A DNA stretch of 64,000 nt. It comes from Leptolinea tardivitalis. GTDB lineage: Bacteria > Chloroflexota > Anaerolineae > Anaerolineales > Anaerolineaceae. The position numbers and the translations under genes are program-made. Shown in pieces: positions 20,217-26,855 of the stretch. Below the pieces are notes generated by a model that ran no database searches, had not been told where the DNA came from, and was given only the letters and a program-made list of their open reading frames with translations. The stretch lies in contig NZ_BBYA01000008.1 in assembly GCF_001050275.1 (NCBI RefSeq), positions 372,001-436,000 of the forward strand, written 5' to 3'. Positions within the stretch are counted from its first letter, which is position 1, and the number at the start of each line of letters is the position of its first letter.

Positions 20217-20951
20217 CTATGGATGAATTGTCACCACGAAGCGGGGCGCAAAATGAAATACCAATGTCGGTGTAAAACTCGGGAGGATGTGTAAAGGCAC
20301 TGGAACCAGTTGACGAAATTCCACAGAATCAATTTGCACCCAGAAAGCCTCCATCCCGGAGGCTCCGATGCCAAAAACTATGTTATCGGGAGATTTTAAC
20401 CGGAAATACCCTTTATACGTTCCTCCGGTTGTCGGGGCTTTCAATTTGACAGCTATATCAACTGTGGCACCCGGTGGAACCGAACCGCTGGTAAGTACAG
20501 TCTCATCGGGAGCACTCATCCGATCGCCCGAATCAAAAATTACATGGTAACCTGAAGTCCATGTGCAGGAACCCGTATTCGTGATGCGCCATTTCTTCGT
20601 AAATTCAAAACCTGCGGTAACGTCTGTTCCATCCGGATGACTGACATCGCTGACGAACGCGGCCCGGTTGCATGGTATGGGTACTGGTGTGTTGGTGAAT
20701 GTAGGTAGAATGACTGTATTTGTTGATGTCATTGTTGAGGTTGGTGTATTTGGAGCAAGCGTTGCAGTTTCGGTGATCACCGGAGGGACTGATGTAAATG
20801 TGATTGCCGGTGGATTTGTGATGGTATTTACCGGTGAGGTTTTGGTTGTCTCTGTTCCGGTGTTGGGAATGAGCGGCATATTGCAGGAAAGCGCAATGAG
20901 AAGAAAAACAACCAGAATGTAGAGCCGTAGAGAATATTTTTGATTTCCCAT
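20217..20951 (-). CDS. Lipoprotein with NBR1-type Ig-like domain
   Basis: A 244-residue protein with signal peptide and lipobox ALSC (Cys at residue 23), then a Thr/Pro/Ser-rich linker of about 65 residues, then an Ig-like domain. The signatures are FTKKWRITNTGSCTWTSGYH, SVPPGATVDIAVKLKAPT and GTYKGYFRLKSPD, the NBR1 Ig-like pattern common in secreted proteins of Anaerolineae. It probably acts as an extracellular binding or adhesion module. The ATG has AGGAGG upstream (20958-20963). No catalytic domain is visible. Confidence 0.8.
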   Translation of the reverse strand: MGNQKYSLRLYILVVFLLIALSCNMPLIPNTGTETTKTSPVNTITNPPAITFTSVPPVITETATLAPNTPTSTMTSTNTVILPTFTNTPVPIPCNRAAFVSDVSHPDGTDVTAGFEFTKKWRITNTGSCTWTSGYHVIFDSGDRMSAPDETVLTSGSVPPGATVDIAVKLKAPTTGGTYKGYFRLKSPDNIVFGIGASGMEAFWVQIDSVEFRQLVPVPLHILPSFTPTLVFHFAPRFVVTIHP

Positions 20952-21013
20952 CTGACCTCCTCATTTCTGGTAGGCGATATTAACATTATACAGACGGGAA
21001 AGATTAAAACAAG

Positions 21014-22276
21014 CTAAATTGTCATGTGACGTTTTCCACGATCTTTTACAAATATTTGCATGATTATCACGCATATGATGGAAAACACGGCTGCTGTAAG
21101 AAATGTTACTGAAAAGCTGCTGATATCGGCCAACCAACCACCGATCAGTGGCGAAAGAATGGTGCTGGGAGCAATTAACGTATTGGAAAGTCCAACATAG
21201 GTGGGCTTTTCTTCTTCTGTACCAAATTCCAACGACATAGCGATGCCGATTGTCCAAAAAGCCGTTGTCGCTGTGCCTGATAGAATAATGACCAGATAGA
21301 ACCAATCAGCAGAAGGAGCCAGCCAGGCAATCAAAGATGCCAGACCAATACAAACGGCCCCTCCTTTGAGCACATTCGAGCTGTTCCATTTATCAGATAT
21401 TCGTCCGAGAATTGGATTGGCAGCCACCTGGGTGATAAAAAGAAGACCAGTCATAATGCCAGATGCTTCAAGACTTAGATTAAGTTCTTTTATGGCATAA
21501 ATGATAAAAAACGCCTGAGCCATCATGCCAAACTGGAAGGCATTGCGGGAAATGATAAACCACCGGAATGACGAGTCGTTTTTCATAATGGTGATGACTT
21601 TGCGCCAAAAATCAGCTTTTGAATGGTCTTCCGGAATTTCTTCCCTGGCAGGTTCACGGGTCATGGCCAGCAGCGAATATGAAATTGCCATCAAAAGGAA
21701 GGTTATGACAAAGCAAATGGCAAAACCATTTGTATTGCCATTTGCCGAACCGAATTTCTCGAGGATATATCCGGCAATAACGGCACCACCACTTGCCAGG
21801 AGGTTTGAGCCGGCTGATTGTAATCCTATGAAAGTTGCCAGTCCGTCAGATGGGATAATGCGATTCACCATATTTTGCCAGGCATTGGCAGTCATACCGG
21901 CGCCCATGCCCTGCCAAATCAATAACAAGAAGGTGAGAAGTAATCCTACTGTTGTGCCAAGTTTGGGAGCCAGTAAAGCGATGATAGCCAACCCGAGAAA
22001 GGGTACCCTTTCTTGAATGGTCATCAAAAGAACATAGGGTTTAAATCTTGGCAATCGGGTAATTCTATGGGCAGTAAAGAGCTGGGGGAATTCCCATCCG
22101 ACATTGTGAATAGCAGGGATCAAGCCAATTAAAATAGCAGAATTGGTCATTGTTGAAACAAATAATGGGATGATGGTATTAAACGAAGAAAATCCCAACC
22201 CGAAGCCGAAAAACGAACCGTCTCCCATATTGACGATGAAATTATGTTTTAAATCTTTCCTGATGATATCTGCCAT
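21014..22276 (-). CDS. MFS transporter
   Basis: A 420-residue hydrophobic protein with 12 predicted transmembrane helices in two halves, and a central cytoplasmic loop around EPAREEIPEDHSKADF between helices 6 and 7. RISDKWNSSNVLKGG resembles the conserved MFS loop between helices 8 and 9. Substrate cannot be inferred: no adjacent pathway genes are present, only a lipoprotein gene downstream. The start ATG has AGGG 5-6 bases upstream. Confidence 0.85.
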   Translation of the reverse strand: MADIIRKDLKHNFIVNMGDGSFFGFGLGFSSFNTIIPLFVSTMTNSAILIGLIPAIHNVGWEFPQLFTAHRITRLPRFKPYVLLMTIQERVPFLGLAIIALLAPKLGTTVGLLLTFLLLIWQGMGAGMTANAWQNMVNRIIPSDGLATFIGLQSAGSNLLASGGAVIAGYILEKFGSANGNTNGFAICFVITFLLMAISYSLLAMTREPAREEIPEDHSKADFWRKVITIMKNDSSFRWFIISRNAFQFGMMAQAFFIIYAIKELNLSLEASGIMTGLLFITQVAANPILGRISDKWNSSNVLKGGAVCIGLASLIAWLAPSADWFYLVIILSGTATTAFWTIGIAMSLEFGTEEEKPTYVGLSNTLIAPSTILSPLIGGWLADISSFSVTFLTAAVFSIICVIIMQIFVKDRGKRHMTI

Positions 22277-22293
22277 TTTTCCCTGAGAATAAA

Positions 22294-22330
22294 AAATCCC
22301 CTTCCGTCGTTAGATATCGGAGGGGGATTT
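22294..22330 (-). terminator. Terminator of the VKOR/acidic protein transcript
   Basis: On the minus strand the stem AAATCCCCCTCCG pairs with CGGAAGGGGATTT with one mismatch, and the 3' arm runs into TTTTTTATT. It lies between the stop of the acidic protein gene and the MFS start. Confidence 0.75.
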
Positions 22331-22401
22331 ACTGTTGACTAAGTGTTTCTGGTTTTACCTTTCAGAATCACCTGAATTGTACTGTTTAACAAGGTTTCCG
22401 A

Positions 22402-22641
22402 CTAGTAGGCTTCTTCATCTTCTTCCGACCAAAGATCTTCGTCTTCGTCTTCTTCCCCTTCAATCTCTTCCCATTCTTCCAATTCTTCTTCTTCCTCTTC
22501 CCAATCTTCATTGGTTGAGGATTCTGCATTGGGGTTATAGGTCATACAACCTGAATCAGGGTCAAATTCCACTGCAGCTGCGCTGCACATACCTTCGTCG
22601 ATGAAAACGCAATCCAGATAATGACATCGAATTCTAGCCAT
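22402..22641 (-). CDS. Small Cys-cluster protein with extremely acidic tail
   Basis: A 79-residue protein. Residues 1-35 carry four Cys in C-X4-C-X7-C-X12-C spacing (Cys 6, 11, 19, 32) with a His after the first, resembling the short DUF1540-like metal-binding pattern. Residues ~43-79 are almost entirely Glu and Asp with a few Trp/Leu. The start is ATG 22641, preceded by GGAGG; a longer frame reading from 22707 lies inside the VKOR gene. It overlaps the VKOR stop by 8 bases, indicating translational coupling. The pairing suggests a thiol- or metal-related role, but this is inference only. Confidence 0.65.
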   Translation of the reverse strand: MARIRCHYLDCVFIDEGMCSAAAVEFDPDSGCMTYNPNAESSTNEDWEEEEEELEEWEEIEGEEDEDEDLWSEEDEEAY

Positions 22642-23101
22642 TCTTTTCCTCCAAAGACAGGATGTAATCGCCACGGTTTTGAACCAGGCGTAACAAAGTG
22701 CAAACAAATAATGTAGTCATTAATAAAGCGGAAACTACACAGAACGGACAGACCGCTTTTATAACCGCAATTTCCAGATAGGTCAAGTAAAAAGAGTATA
22801 TAAAACCGGCAAAAGTAGCCCCAAATATAAGCTGGTCTAAGATAATTTCAGGAAAAGGAAGGTATTTCTTGCCAACCAGTAAGACAAAGATAATCAAATA
22901 TGCTGCAATACCCAGGGCAGAAACCGGAATACCCAGTATTTCTGAATATTGGCTGTTATTAACCGTCCAACAATCACCCAGACCAGGCAGACACATAGCC
23001 TGATTGTGGGTAAGTTTAATAAATAATAGATAAGCAGAATCGATTAATCCAAGTATGGAGGCCGTTATGGCAACCTTTTGATTAATCGTAAAATTCTTCA
23101 T
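22634..23101 (-). CDS. Vitamin K epoxide reductase family thiol oxidoreductase
   Basis: A 155-residue protein with four to five transmembrane helices. Loop cysteines Cys37 and Cys44 lie in a CLPGLGDCWTV context, followed by NSQYSEILGIPVSALG, and the active-site pair is CPFC near residue 124. Bacterial VKOR homologues replace DsbB and reoxidise a periplasmic DsbA-like partner using quinone, introducing disulfides into exported proteins. No thioredoxin domain is fused here, so a separate partner is needed. I prefer ATG 23101 (AGGTG upstream) over GTG 23110. Coupled to the acidic protein gene. Confidence 0.88.
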   Translation of the reverse strand: MKNFTINQKVAITASILGLIDSAYLLFIKLTHNQAMCLPGLGDCWTVNNSQYSEILGIPVSALGIAAYLIIFVLLVGKKYLPFPEIILDQLIFGATFAGFIYSFYLTYLEIAVIKAVCPFCVVSALLMTTLFVCTLLRLVQNRGDYILSLEEKNG

Positions 23102-23193
23102 AATGGACACCTGGTTGTACTCAATAAAAGCGGAGCGATTTTACCGCATTGGTGGCAATGCGTAAAGTATAAAAATCTAAAATATTTGTTAGA

Positions 23194-25401
23194 TTATCCA
23201 GGTTTTTGCCTTCTGGCTTCCAAAACATTCGGAAGATTCTCGATTTTTGTTAAAACACGGCTCAATTGGGCAATATCCCCGATTTCCAAAATCAGGTTGA
23301 AGGCTGCAAGATTCTGATTTACTTTCAGATTAATATCCAGCACATTGATTCCTTCATTGGTCAAAATAGAAGATATATCACCCATTAATCCTTGCCGGTC
23401 ATAAGCCTTGATTTGTATGGCTACCGGGAATGTCTTTTGTGCTTCACCCCAATTAACCTTAACCAGCCGCTCTCTGTCTGTCAATCGGAGAATATTCGGG
23501 CAATCCTGCCGGTGGATTGTAGCTCCGCGTCCGCGAGTGATATAACCGATAATTTCGTCACCTGGAGCTGGATTGCAGCAACGAGCCAGACTGGTGAGAA
23601 TTCCTTTCAACCCGAGGACTATTACGGCATTGCCTACTTTTTTTGTTTCGGTGGGAAGCTTTGTCTCCAACGCTTCCACCTGTCGATCTTTTTCTACTTC
23701 TGACAGTCGGTTGATGATGCGGCCCATCGAAAAATCACCGCAACCGATATCTTCATAGAGGTCTTCAATTTCGTGGTATTCAAAATCGCGGGCGACTTTT
23801 TCAAGATCGAAATCAGTGATCCCCAGACGGCGGAGCTCTCGATCGAGCAAGGTTTTTCCCTGGGTGATATTTTGATCGCGGTCCTGTTTCTTGAACCACT
23901 GGCGGACCTTCGACCGGGCCCTCTGAGTACGGATCAGGCCGAGGTTGGTGTTCAACCAGTCTCGGCTGGGACCGCCTTGTTTGGCTGTGAGGATTTCAAC
24001 CTGATCGCCGGTTTTAAGTGCATAATCAAGGGTAACCAGCTTGCCGTTTATTTTGGCTCCGCGGCAGCGATGACCAATCTGAGTATGTACATGGTAGGCA
24101 AAATCAATGGGGGTTGAACCAGCTGGCAGGTCTATGATGTCTCCACGGGGTGTGAATACATACACCCTGTCTTGAAAGACATCTGTTTTCATGCTGTCGA
24201 CAAATTCCTGGGCATCACTCACATCCTGACGCCAGTCCATCAATTGTCTGAGCCAGTTGATGCGCTGTTCGTACGTTTCGTCGCGGCGTCCGCGTTCCTT
24301 GTATCGCCAGTGTGCAGCAATACCATATTCCGCGTTCTGGTGCATTTCGGGCGTACGGATTTGCACTTCAAGAGGTTTGCCATCATCATAAATGATAGCC
24401 GTGTGCAGCGATTGATAAAAATTGTCTTTGGGTGCTGCAATGTAATCGTCAAATTCGTGAGGAATAGGGCGCCAGCGGGTGTGAATGACACCAAGTGCAG
24501 CGTAGCATGAAGGAATATCAGGCACGATCAGACGAAAGGCACGCAGATCGCGAACCATTTCGAAAGGTTTGCCTTTTTCGATCATTTTTTTATAGATGGA
24601 ATAGATGTGCTTGGGTCGGCCGGAAATCTCAGCCTTAATCCCTGCCTGTGCCATGATATTTTGGAGTCTGGTTTGAATACTCTGAACCTGACGGTTGCGG
24701 TCTTCCTGCCGTTCTGCCAGATTTTCAGCAATTTCTTTATACTTTTCCGGCATGGCATAGCGGAATCCGAGGTCTTCTAATTCCCATTTCATTTGCCAGA
24801 TACCGAGACGATTAGCCAGGGGAGCAAAAATATCCAAAGTCTCTTGAGCAATCCGGCGCCGCTTGGCCTCAGGCATAAAGCCCAGGGTGCGCATATTGTG
24901 CAGACGGTCGGCCAGTTTGATCAATACAACGCGAATATCTTCCCCCATGGCCATGAATGTTTTTCGCAGGGTTTCAGAAGCCAGGTCTCGGCGGCGGCTT
25001 CGGGCTGCCTGTGATTCGTCTGCTTCCTGGGCAGGCGTCATGGCATTGACTTCATTCATATGTTGATCACCCCGCGAGACACGGGGCAGATTGGTCAATT
25101 TGGTTACACCGTCGACCAGTTTAGCCACTTCATCGCCAAAATCACGTTTTAGATCTTCGTTTGTAACTTTGGTATCTTCGACTGTATCATGGAGTAAACC
25201 GGCAATTACTACAACCGGGGGAATTTTTAATTCGGCCAAGATACCTGCCACAGCCACACAGTGTGTTATGTAAGGTTCCCCCGACGCCCTTTTTTGATCT
25301 CTATGAGCTTCTTCGGCGTAGTTATATGCTCGCATGACCAGTTCGCGGTCTACGGCACTGTAATTATCAGGAAGAATGGCCATTAAATCTTCTATTTTCA
25401 T
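23194..25401 (-). CDS. relA: Bifunctional (p)ppGpp synthetase/hydrolase RelA/SpoT
   Basis: Makes and degrades the stringent-response alarmone. Domain order over 735 residues is as follows. The HD hydrolase domain has HCVAVAGIL and LLHDTVEDT, so its metal-binding His-Asp is intact. The synthetase has RPKHIYSIYKKM and YQSLHTAII. The TGS domain starts near VFTPRGDIIDLPAGSTPIDF, a CC-containing zinc-finger-like segment has ARCCNPAPGDEI, and a C-terminal ACT domain ends the protein. Retention of both catalytic domains predicts a bifunctional Rel-type enzyme. No strong Shine-Dalgarno is seen at the ATG. It stands 92 bases upstream of the VKOR gene on the same strand. Confidence 0.96.
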   Translation of the reverse strand: MKIEDLMAILPDNYSAVDRELVMRAYNYAEEAHRDQKRASGEPYITHCVAVAGILAELKIPPVVVIAGLLHDTVEDTKVTNEDLKRDFGDEVAKLVDGVTKLTNLPRVSRGDQHMNEVNAMTPAQEADESQAARSRRRDLASETLRKTFMAMGEDIRVVLIKLADRLHNMRTLGFMPEAKRRRIAQETLDIFAPLANRLGIWQMKWELEDLGFRYAMPEKYKEIAENLAERQEDRNRQVQSIQTRLQNIMAQAGIKAEISGRPKHIYSIYKKMIEKGKPFEMVRDLRAFRLIVPDIPSCYAALGVIHTRWRPIPHEFDDYIAAPKDNFYQSLHTAIIYDDGKPLEVQIRTPEMHQNAEYGIAAHWRYKERGRRDETYEQRINWLRQLMDWRQDVSDAQEFVDSMKTDVFQDRVYVFTPRGDIIDLPAGSTPIDFAYHVHTQIGHRCRGAKINGKLVTLDYALKTGDQVEILTAKQGGPSRDWLNTNLGLIRTQRARSKVRQWFKKQDRDQNITQGKTLLDRELRRLGITDFDLEKVARDFEYHEIEDLYEDIGCGDFSMGRIINRLSEVEKDRQVEALETKLPTETKKVGNAVIVLGLKGILTSLARCCNPAPGDEIIGYITRGRGATIHRQDCPNILRLTDRERLVKVNWGEAQKTFPVAIQIKAYDRQGLMGDISSILTNEGINVLDINLKVNQNLAAFNLILEIGDIAQLSRVLTKIENLPNVLEARRQKPG

Positions 25402-25487
25402 TGGCAGAATTTTAGAAGATCATTTCTCCATCAAGATTAATGTGTCAGATAGTATACCTTCCGGTGTGCGCGAAAACAACTGTTTCC

Positions 25488-26855
25488 TTAAAAAGGTTCG
25501 GCATAATAGGTCTTCAGTTTAAATCCATTCTGGCGAATCACCTGACTGTACCATCGTGCACTGTCTTTGATAATCCGCTTGCAGTTATTTTCATAATCTA
25601 CAAAAATAATGCCAAAACGTCGGCTGTATCCCTGTGCCCATTCGAAATTATCCAACAGTGACCACACAAAATACCCTTTTACCGGAACCCCATTTTGTAT
25701 TGCCTGATGCACAGAGGAAATATAATCTTGCAGGTATTGAATACGTCGAGAATCCCTTACCCGGCCATCGGCATCCACCCCATCTGTTATGGCTGTGCCA
25801 TTCTCAGTGATATAAATCGCTTTTATGGGGTAATCTCGCTTTAAACGGATAAGCAGATCGTACATGCCGTTTGGATTGAATTCCCACATTTCTGAATATG
25901 TGCTGCCTTCTGGTTGGATCGTTTCATAGTGGAAAGGTTCGATGGATGCATTGAATCGTACAACATTGCGGAAATAATTATTAATTCCAAGGAATTCAGT
26001 CTGAGTTGATATTGTAGGATAGTCTTTTTCATATCCTTCAGGAAAAATGAAGCCCATTGTTGTAGTAATTTCATCTGGATATTTCCCAAGGAAAAGTGGA
26101 TCAAGGAAAATCCTGTTCAAGTGAAGATCGTTAGTGTGAGCTGCCTTTTGGTCTTCGGGAGATTTTGTGGCACTTTCAACACTACTAAGGTTGAGTGTGA
26201 TACCGATTTGAAGCGGCTGCCGTGCTACAGCTCGCATGGTTTGGACTGCCAGTCCGTGACCTAAAAGCAGGTGATGTATGGCGGATGCCGCCATACCCTG
26301 GTCTTGCACCCCGGGAGGGAAAACCCCTTCCAAATGCCCCATTATGGCTACAACCCAGGGTTCATTAATGGTGATCCAATTGTTGATTCGATCGCTGAAA
26401 TGCTCCACTACGATTCCGGCATAATCAGCAAAGTGTTTTGCTGTCTCACGATTTGTCCATCCACCTTTGTCTTCCAATACCTGTGGAAGGTCCCAGTGGA
26501 ACAGGGTGGGGAATGGTTTGATATCGTTCTTTAGCAATTCATCTACCAGGCGATCATAAAAATCCAATCCTTTTGGATTAATAGTACCGGTTCCTGCAGG
26601 GAGAATGCGGGGCCAGGAAAAAGAAAACCGATAGGCGGGCAATCCCAACTGTTTCATCAGGGATACGTCTTCACGCCAGCGATGGTAATGGTCAGCCGCC
26701 ACATCGCCGGTATGTCCGTGATAGACTTTGCCCGGCAACTTGGAAAATGTATCCCAGGTGGACGGGCTGCGGCCATCTTCGTTCCATCCCCCCTCAATTT
26801 GATAGGCAGCTGTTGATGCACCCCACAGGAATCCATCAGGAAAACTGATCTCCAT
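25488..26855 (-). CDS. Beta-glucosidase, glycoside hydrolase family 1
   Basis: Hydrolyses terminal non-reducing beta-glycosides, typically cellobiose or related disaccharides. The GH1 hallmarks are the N-terminal FPDGFLWGASTAAYQIEGG, the acid/base Glu in TINEPW and the nucleophile Glu in ITENG. The 455-residue length is typical and there is no signal peptide, so it is cytoplasmic. It starts 2 bases after the HAD phosphatase stop, so the two are co-transcribed and may handle an imported disaccharide or its phosphorylated product. Specificity (gluco, galacto, 6-phospho) cannot be fixed. Confidence 0.95.
   Translation of the reverse strand: MEISFPDGFLWGASTAAYQIEGGWNEDGRSPSTWDTFSKLPGKVYHGHTGDVAADHYHRWREDVSLMKQLGLPAYRFSFSWPRILPAGTGTINPKGLDFYDRLVDELLKNDIKPFPTLFHWDLPQVLEDKGGWTNRETAKHFADYAGIVVEHFSDRINNWITINEPWVVAIMGHLEGVFPPGVQDQGMAASAIHHLLLGHGLAVQTMRAVARQPLQIGITLNLSSVESATKSPEDQKAAHTNDLHLNRIFLDPLFLGKYPDEITTTMGFIFPEGYEKDYPTISTQTEFLGINNYFRNVVRFNASIEPFHYETIQPEGSTYSEMWEFNPNGMYDLLIRLKRDYPIKAIYITENGTAITDGVDADGRVRDSRRIQYLQDYISSVHQAIQNGVPVKGYFVWSLLDNFEWAQGYSRRFGIIFVDYENNCKRIIKDSARWYSQVIRQNGFKLKTYYAEPF

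Follow-up and report, generated by a model that had tools for sequence, protein, structure and literature searches.

A Cys4 mini-protein with an acidic tryptophan-bearing tail, distantly related to DUF1540, in an RSH-led gene block of Anaerolineae

Introduction

Proteins of the DUF1540 family carry four conserved cysteines as their signature, and in the part of PMC7677010 that describes them, where CdeA of Clostridioides difficile is given as an example, no function is assigned. The DUF1540 of Firmicutes is treated, in the corresponding part of PMC5322542, as a cydX-like protein with a single membrane segment. A lineage of the Anaerolineae offers a form that is single-copy and has a distinctive tail and a conserved neighbourhood. 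What is new is this DUF1540-related form, with its acidic Trp tail and its gene neighbourhood; the DUF1540 family itself is already known. Two further described systems resemble the locus in part: the VKOR-DsbA oxidative folding pairs, VKOR having an active site that faces outside the cytoplasm, and SSB, the C-terminus of which is an acidic tail with a hydrophobic tip.

The form was encountered in a 64,000-nucleotide stretch of DNA from Leptolinea tardivitalis (the window), where its gene overlaps that of a VKOR family protein. The natural presence and absence of VKOR provide clear controls for testing the function of the mini-protein.

Experimental Section

The set of mini-protein copies read in sequence comprised 170 copies, one per genome: 48 from a search of 61 genomes and 122 further ones from a sample of the order, of whose 154 mini-protein genomes four were left out of the sequence reading. 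Loci L080 and L085 were left out as duplicates. Alignment A1 contained 26 of 30 mini-proteins (L002, L004, L017 and L029 were left out by hand), alignment A2 contained 65 of 79 diverse copies, chosen by hand, together with one copy from family f23 and no f3 copy, and alignment A4 contained 48 of 65 heads.

MoeA and DsbA-like genes were named by a Pfam scan of one representative each and by profiles made from their clusters; the DsbA-like representative matched Thioredoxin_4 and DSBA. Identities were averaged over 700 random pairs drawn from the 95 VKOR-adjacent loci, the remnant in genome G054 being left out. The VKOR region was read in 20 of the 31 genomes that have VKOR only. Positions 20900-25700 of the window were scanned for promoters and terminators with a loop limit of 8.

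Results and Discussion

On the minus strand of the window the order is RSH, VKOR, mini-protein, terminator-like hairpin, MFS transporter. The mini-protein gene (22402..22641, minus strand; alignments A1 and A2) starts with ATG and encodes 79 residues, MARIRCHYLDCVFIDEGMCSAAAVEFDPDSGCMTYNPNAESSTNEDWEEEEEELEEWEEIEGEEDEDEDLWSEEDEEAY, which form a Cys4 head and an acidic Trp tail. The head is drawn as residues 1-40 (22522..22641, minus strand; the DUF1540-like part is residues 1 to about 36) and reads C6-x4-C11-x7-C19-x12-C32; the tail, residues 41-79 (22405..22521, minus strand; drawn also as 37-79), contains Trp47, Trp57 and Trp71 and ends in Tyr. The sequence-only reading had described a four-Cys, one-His head, rightly so (Cys6, Cys11, Cys19 and Cys32 with His7), and a tail of about 36 residues that was almost all Glu/Asp with Trp. 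Acidity and tryptophans (three) are borne out; "almost all" was slightly generous, 25 of the last 36 residues being Asp or Glu.

The gene upstream (22634..23101, minus strand) encodes a VKOR family membrane thiol oxidase of 155 residues from ATG, or 158 from a GTG upstream of it. Both the family score (PF07884, E 8e-26; 91.2 bits against a Pfam cut-off of 27.5) and the four cysteines expected of the family place it there: cysteines stand at 37, 44, 118, 121 and 134, the first four of which we take to be the catalytic ones (CxxC and loop pair). The overlap of 8 bases between the two genes had been read correctly, positions 22634-22641 being common to both. It is a local feature, confined among 95 VKOR-mini-protein pairs to the window and its two congeners; gaps in these pairs range from -32 to +85 bp, with a median of 14.

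RSH, a RelA/SpoT (p)ppGpp synthetase/hydrolase with HD_4, RelA_SpoT, TGS and ACT domains (23194..25401, minus strand), stands upstream in the conserved block. Some 72 nt beyond the mini-protein stop lies a terminator-like hairpin with a U run (22294..22330, minus strand; fold -17.7 kcal/mol, z -1.93, 7 of 200 shuffles as stable), which is likely to be the end of the unit before the gene of an MFS transporter (21014..22276, minus strand, PF07690); the latter, downstream of the hairpin, is probably outside the unit. In the scan of 20900-25700 numbers were near chance (7 promoter-like motifs, 9.0 expected; 7 terminator-like motifs, 5.2 expected), and the hairpin at 22294-22330, with its loop of 11, is not listed there.

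The acidic coding of the mini-protein is of low complexity and the window protein gives no credible Pfam or NCBIfam match, as might be expected of a chance reading frame. This explanation has next to no probability and is ruled out by conservation and by dN/dS. With the window protein as query, a match was found in 48 of 61 genomes (the window's own and 60 relatives); with a 26-row profile, the order sample of 201 genomes gave 154 with a match, and those listed have one each. Comparison with two congeners gave dN 0.042/dS 1.38 and dN 0.050/dS 1.08, a dN/dS of about 0.03-0.05 and hence purifying selection, and 158 of 170 copies have a ribosome-binding-site-like motif no more than 20 nt upstream. 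The mini-protein is a genuine, strongly conserved and previously unstudied gene of Anaerolineae. A profile search of 400 genomes drawn from the phylum matched 36, comprising, among the genomes listed, 34 of 36 members of the order and, elsewhere in the class, 2 of 19 genomes (family f23); among the matches listed none lay outside the class. In a short-pattern scan of named genomes the titles of the best 80 of 273 relatives all named Chloroflexi, Anaerolineae or genera and families belonging to it. Recoding was considered for the two f23 copies, which had been flagged as containing one TGA, and was rejected: this TGA serves as the ordinary stop codon after ...DEEW.

The window protein gave no match to DUF1540 (PF07561) at E≤1 and did not reach the gathering cut-off of 22.1, nor was there a PF07561 match to the mini-protein in the search of its own genome (G000). 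Among the 61 genomes the cut-off was passed by the G022 copy only (24.0 versus 22.1 bits); a larger search, in which a smaller number of candidates was scored, gave no PF07561 match for G022. Scanned singly, 15 of 26 members matched PF07561 at E≤10; among 66 diverse members 40 matched at E≤1 (best E 0.00031) and 26 gave none, no other Pfam family was found in more than 1 of the 66, and an NCBIfam scan of the 66 gave at most two per family. Alignment A2 was compared by hhalign with eight DUF1540 proteins of Chloroflexota, with 92.7% probability, E 4e-7 and the four cysteines in register, so that the four-Cys order of the DUF1540 family is present in the mini-protein family. These eight (L206-L213) are ordinary DUF1540 proteins. 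They come from six genomes of Chloroflexota that do not belong to the class, and two of the six hold two copies. On sequence grounds the head is classed as a divergent DUF1540 relative and not as a certified member, because single members and the profile-profile comparison match DUF1540 and the window protein stays below the cut-off. Both have C-x4-C followed by an aromatic residue, C-x-A-x-x-[VI] and C-x-T-[YF]; the mini-protein differs in a DPDxG turn before the fourth cysteine and in its long acidic Trp tail, the like of which the eight Chloroflexota proteins do not have. It had been remarked that no partner of this form was described for VKOR. No paper was found in which DUF1540 occurs together with VKOR or Anaerolineae (descriptions without these words would be missed), and to that extent the remark stands; the head itself, however, relates to the known DUF1540 (PF07561) family.

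Four cysteines are kept in 168 of 170 copies, with the spacing C-x4-C-x7,8-C-x10..13-C. The exceptions are L059, in which the second is replaced by Phe, and L075 (G047, a single-contig genome), in which the reading frame is lost between Cys3 and Cys4, leaving 46 residues; just upstream of this broken gene a PF07884 match is present. His7, found in 113 of 170 copies only, is not a universal ligand for that reason, and was rejected as an invariant metal ligand.

Tails were measured in the 165 complete copies. They are 30-64 residues long (mean 43.5), consist of 60% Asp/Glu (lowest 36%) and 1.8% basic residues, and are free of Cys in all 165; judged by this composition, the tail is probably disordered. 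No tail lacks Trp: 110 have three, 43 have two and 12 have one, and 9, 10 and 13 are the most frequent Trp-Trp spacings. Of the 165 tails, 91 end in Phe or Tyr, residues that account for 2.0% of the tail elsewhere. The likeness to the C-terminus of SSB is that the acidic run ends in a hydrophobic or aromatic residue (in 112 of 165 tails a hydrophobic last residue comes directly after Asp/Glu); the mini-protein differs from SSB in having up to three tryptophans, most often 9-10 or 13 apart, and a Cys4 head instead of an OB fold. Repeat-like tails, in which Asp runs are broken by LL, FL or LW every 6-7 residues or so, were observed in family f13 (L161, L176, L182 and L183).

AlphaFold2 gave weak models for the whole protein (pLDDT 67.6, pTM 0.29) and for the head alone (pLDDT 54.2, pTM 0.23), the former with a low-confidence helix at 46-64 instead of disorder. 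A sequence search of the PDB returned nothing credible (best E 1.4), and a Foldseek search of the PDB with the weak whole-protein model returned one match that was not credible either (E 9). In a simple hydropathy scan the 19-residue Kyte-Doolittle mean reached 1.27 at most among the 170 mini-proteins, so that none shows a hydrophobic segment for export or membrane insertion. In this they are unlike the cydX-like DUF1540 as presented in the relevant part of PMC5322542.

The mini-protein gene tends to end an RSH-[MoeA]-[DsbA]-[VKOR]-mini-protein block. Directly upstream on the same strand, the 170 loci have VKOR in 96 and a DsbA-like gene in one; in three the contig is too short and in G028 and G007 the gene lies elsewhere. 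RSH or MoeA lies within 2.6 kb upstream on the same strand in 160 of 170 loci, and the other ten consist of four short contigs, G028, G007 and four f13 loci with VKOR adjacent. In the 41 relatives' loci with enough sequence, RSH was found within 4.5 kb upstream in 35, VKOR in 23 and MoeA in 21. The flanks of the block are less constant: of 40 loci with enough sequence, 14 have the most frequent downstream family (MFS likewise is downstream in 14), and on the 5' side of RSH the most frequent family is present in 18 of 34.

A terminator-like hairpin follows within 200 nt of the mini-protein gene in 93 of 163 loci, against 1.2 expected from mononucleotide shuffles, and precedes it within 200 nt in 6. 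A scan over 250 nt with wider loops and without shuffles found a hairpin after the gene in 97 of 162 loci and before it in 9; these 9 comprise 7 of the 94 loci with VKOR adjacent, 1 of the 42 with RSH and 1 of the 22 with MoeA. Hairpins are thus far more frequent after the gene than before it, and the mini-protein therefore often closes the unit, the genes of which may well be co-transcribed.

Its place in this block might mean that the mini-protein directly regulates RSH, or the ribosomal setting of RSH, by means of an acidic tail that imitates nucleic acid and competes for an RNA-binding surface. RSH is the most constant neighbour, and at the 74 loci without adjacent VKOR the next gene upstream is RSH in 44 and MoeA in 24. 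We nevertheless consider such a role rather unlikely, for a conserved neighbourhood is no proof of contact, the gap between RSH and the mini-protein is 76-240 bp in 37 of those 44 loci, so that no tight coupling is seen, and there is no RSH near the mini-protein in f23. A metal store or chaperone, the Cys4 and tail of which would hold Zn, Fe or a Mo-related metal, for example for MoeA products, would suit a Cys4 joined to a polyanionic tail and the fact that 90 of 170 loci have MoeA at most 2.6 kb upstream. MoeA does not, however, adjoin the mini-protein in many loci (in 22 of 45 loci of family f1 the neighbouring gene is RSH), the sequence names no metal, and the tryptophans and hydrophobic tip, which storage would presumably not need, are kept; a store is unlikely, if a little easier to entertain than direct control of RSH.

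The sequence-only reading had coupled the mini-protein to VKOR. A real and old association is upheld. Intact VKOR lies directly upstream of the mini-protein in 95 of 170 loci and in 10 of 14 families, and there is one further locus, that of G054, with a remnant. In f23 (two loci), which belongs to another order of the class, MoeA, DsbA-like gene, VKOR and mini-protein stand in a row, RSH not being found in the stretch read at either locus, and the association with VKOR is therefore old. Profiling of the pair, which had been proposed as a check, found co-occurrence: in the order sample of 201 genomes 126 have both, 28 the mini-protein only, 31 VKOR only and 16 neither (odds ratio 2.3, p 0.027, statistics that ignore kinship). 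Wide occurrence without VKOR, which had been named as counting against the coupling, is seen in part, 28 of the 154 mini-protein genomes having no PF07884 match.

A partner or substrate of VKOR, with four cysteines forming or relaying disulfides with VKOR or DsbA and a tail serving solubility or metal binding, would be in keeping with this association, with the short gaps and with the f23 order. The mini-protein resembles members of VKOR-DsbA oxidative folding pairs in that VKOR, and in 6 of 170 loci a DsbA-like gene, precedes it, and differs in showing no export segment and in persisting without VKOR. A VKOR-dependent redox partner would be expected only with VKOR, which is not the case in the 28 genomes above. 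In both samples together 35 mini-protein genomes from six families (the G054 stub included; 26 of the 35 are of the window's own family) have no PF07884 match; all 35 keep the four cysteines, and G019 (1 contig) and G576 (3 contigs) are near-complete. Where VKOR is missing the mini-protein stays mostly beside RSH or MoeA. In the random pairs the mean identity was 0.70 for the head, 0.46 for the tail and 0.44 for VKOR (0.53 for MoeA, 322 pairs), and head identity exceeded that of VKOR in 695 of 700. A dedicated VKOR redox partner is unlikely, because the hydropathy scan showed no segment for export in the mini-protein and VKOR evolves faster than the head; given its apparent location, it could hardly be a VKOR substrate, since it shows no export segment and the active site of VKOR points away from the cytoplasm. 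A role as partner or substrate is accordingly improbable in our estimate, and the reduction of VKOR to a stub in G054, beside a DsbA-like gene and a mini-protein, also speaks against it. VKOR and the mini-protein are old operon mates, and VKOR is not needed by the mini-protein. That two genes of an operon overlap tightly in a single genome says little about partnership, because VKOR drops out in several families and the mini-protein stays. The remnant itself (L055) is a C-terminal stub with a CPFC motif, about 197 to 44 nt before the intact mini-protein gene and after the DsbA-like gene.

The reading that we favour, tentatively and with somewhat less than even confidence, is that the mini-protein is a cytosolic, DUF1540-type, metal-binding (probably zinc-binding) Cys4 adaptor with a polyanionic docking tail. 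It would be made from the end of an RSH-led unit, often with MoeA, sometimes with DsbA, and with VKOR, and would be co-expressed with VKOR where VKOR exists without requiring it. The Cys4 micro-domain would most likely bind one zinc ion; joined to it would be a disordered polyanion, and the tryptophans and the aromatic or hydrophobic C-terminal tip might dock on a basic surface of a partner. The observed basis of this adaptor consists of the gene, its family, its conservation, the gene order, its persistence without VKOR and its relation to DUF1540; from these we infer the cytosolic location, the metal binding and the docking by the tail; a link with RSH or with the translation machinery, if there is one, belongs with these. 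C-x4-C is not a classical zinc knuckle, which counts against zinc, and disulfides or an Fe-S centre at the Cys4 may be alternatives. We think it improbable that the mini-protein is an Anaerolineae Cys4 metal or redox sensor with an acidic, nucleic-acid-imitating Trp tail through which RSH or factors bound to the ribosome are controlled, VKOR being a loose companion in the operon; if true, this would link thiol or metal status to the stringent response.

In five of the 20 VKOR-only genomes read (L216, L218, L221, L223 and L227) VKOR lies inside the RSH-MoeA block, and in L217 a DsbA-like gene adjoins VKOR. In G555 (L231) the order is RSH, DsbA-like gene, VKOR and then an assembly gap, in which a mini-protein may be hidden; an apparent fusion of VKOR with a prolyl-tRNA synthetase-like protein in this genome was rejected, the frame passing through a stretch of N. 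At L216, L223 and L227 (genus g48, family f15) the reading frame that comes after RSH-MoeA-VKOR, at +11 bp, is an acidic one of 139-143 residues without Cys; two of the three were scanned and gave no Pfam match. It consists of a short Lys-rich stretch and then mostly Asp/Glu, and it holds the slot of the mini-protein, which weakly suggests that an acidic polypeptide in the post-VKOR slot is useful apart from the Cys4 head.
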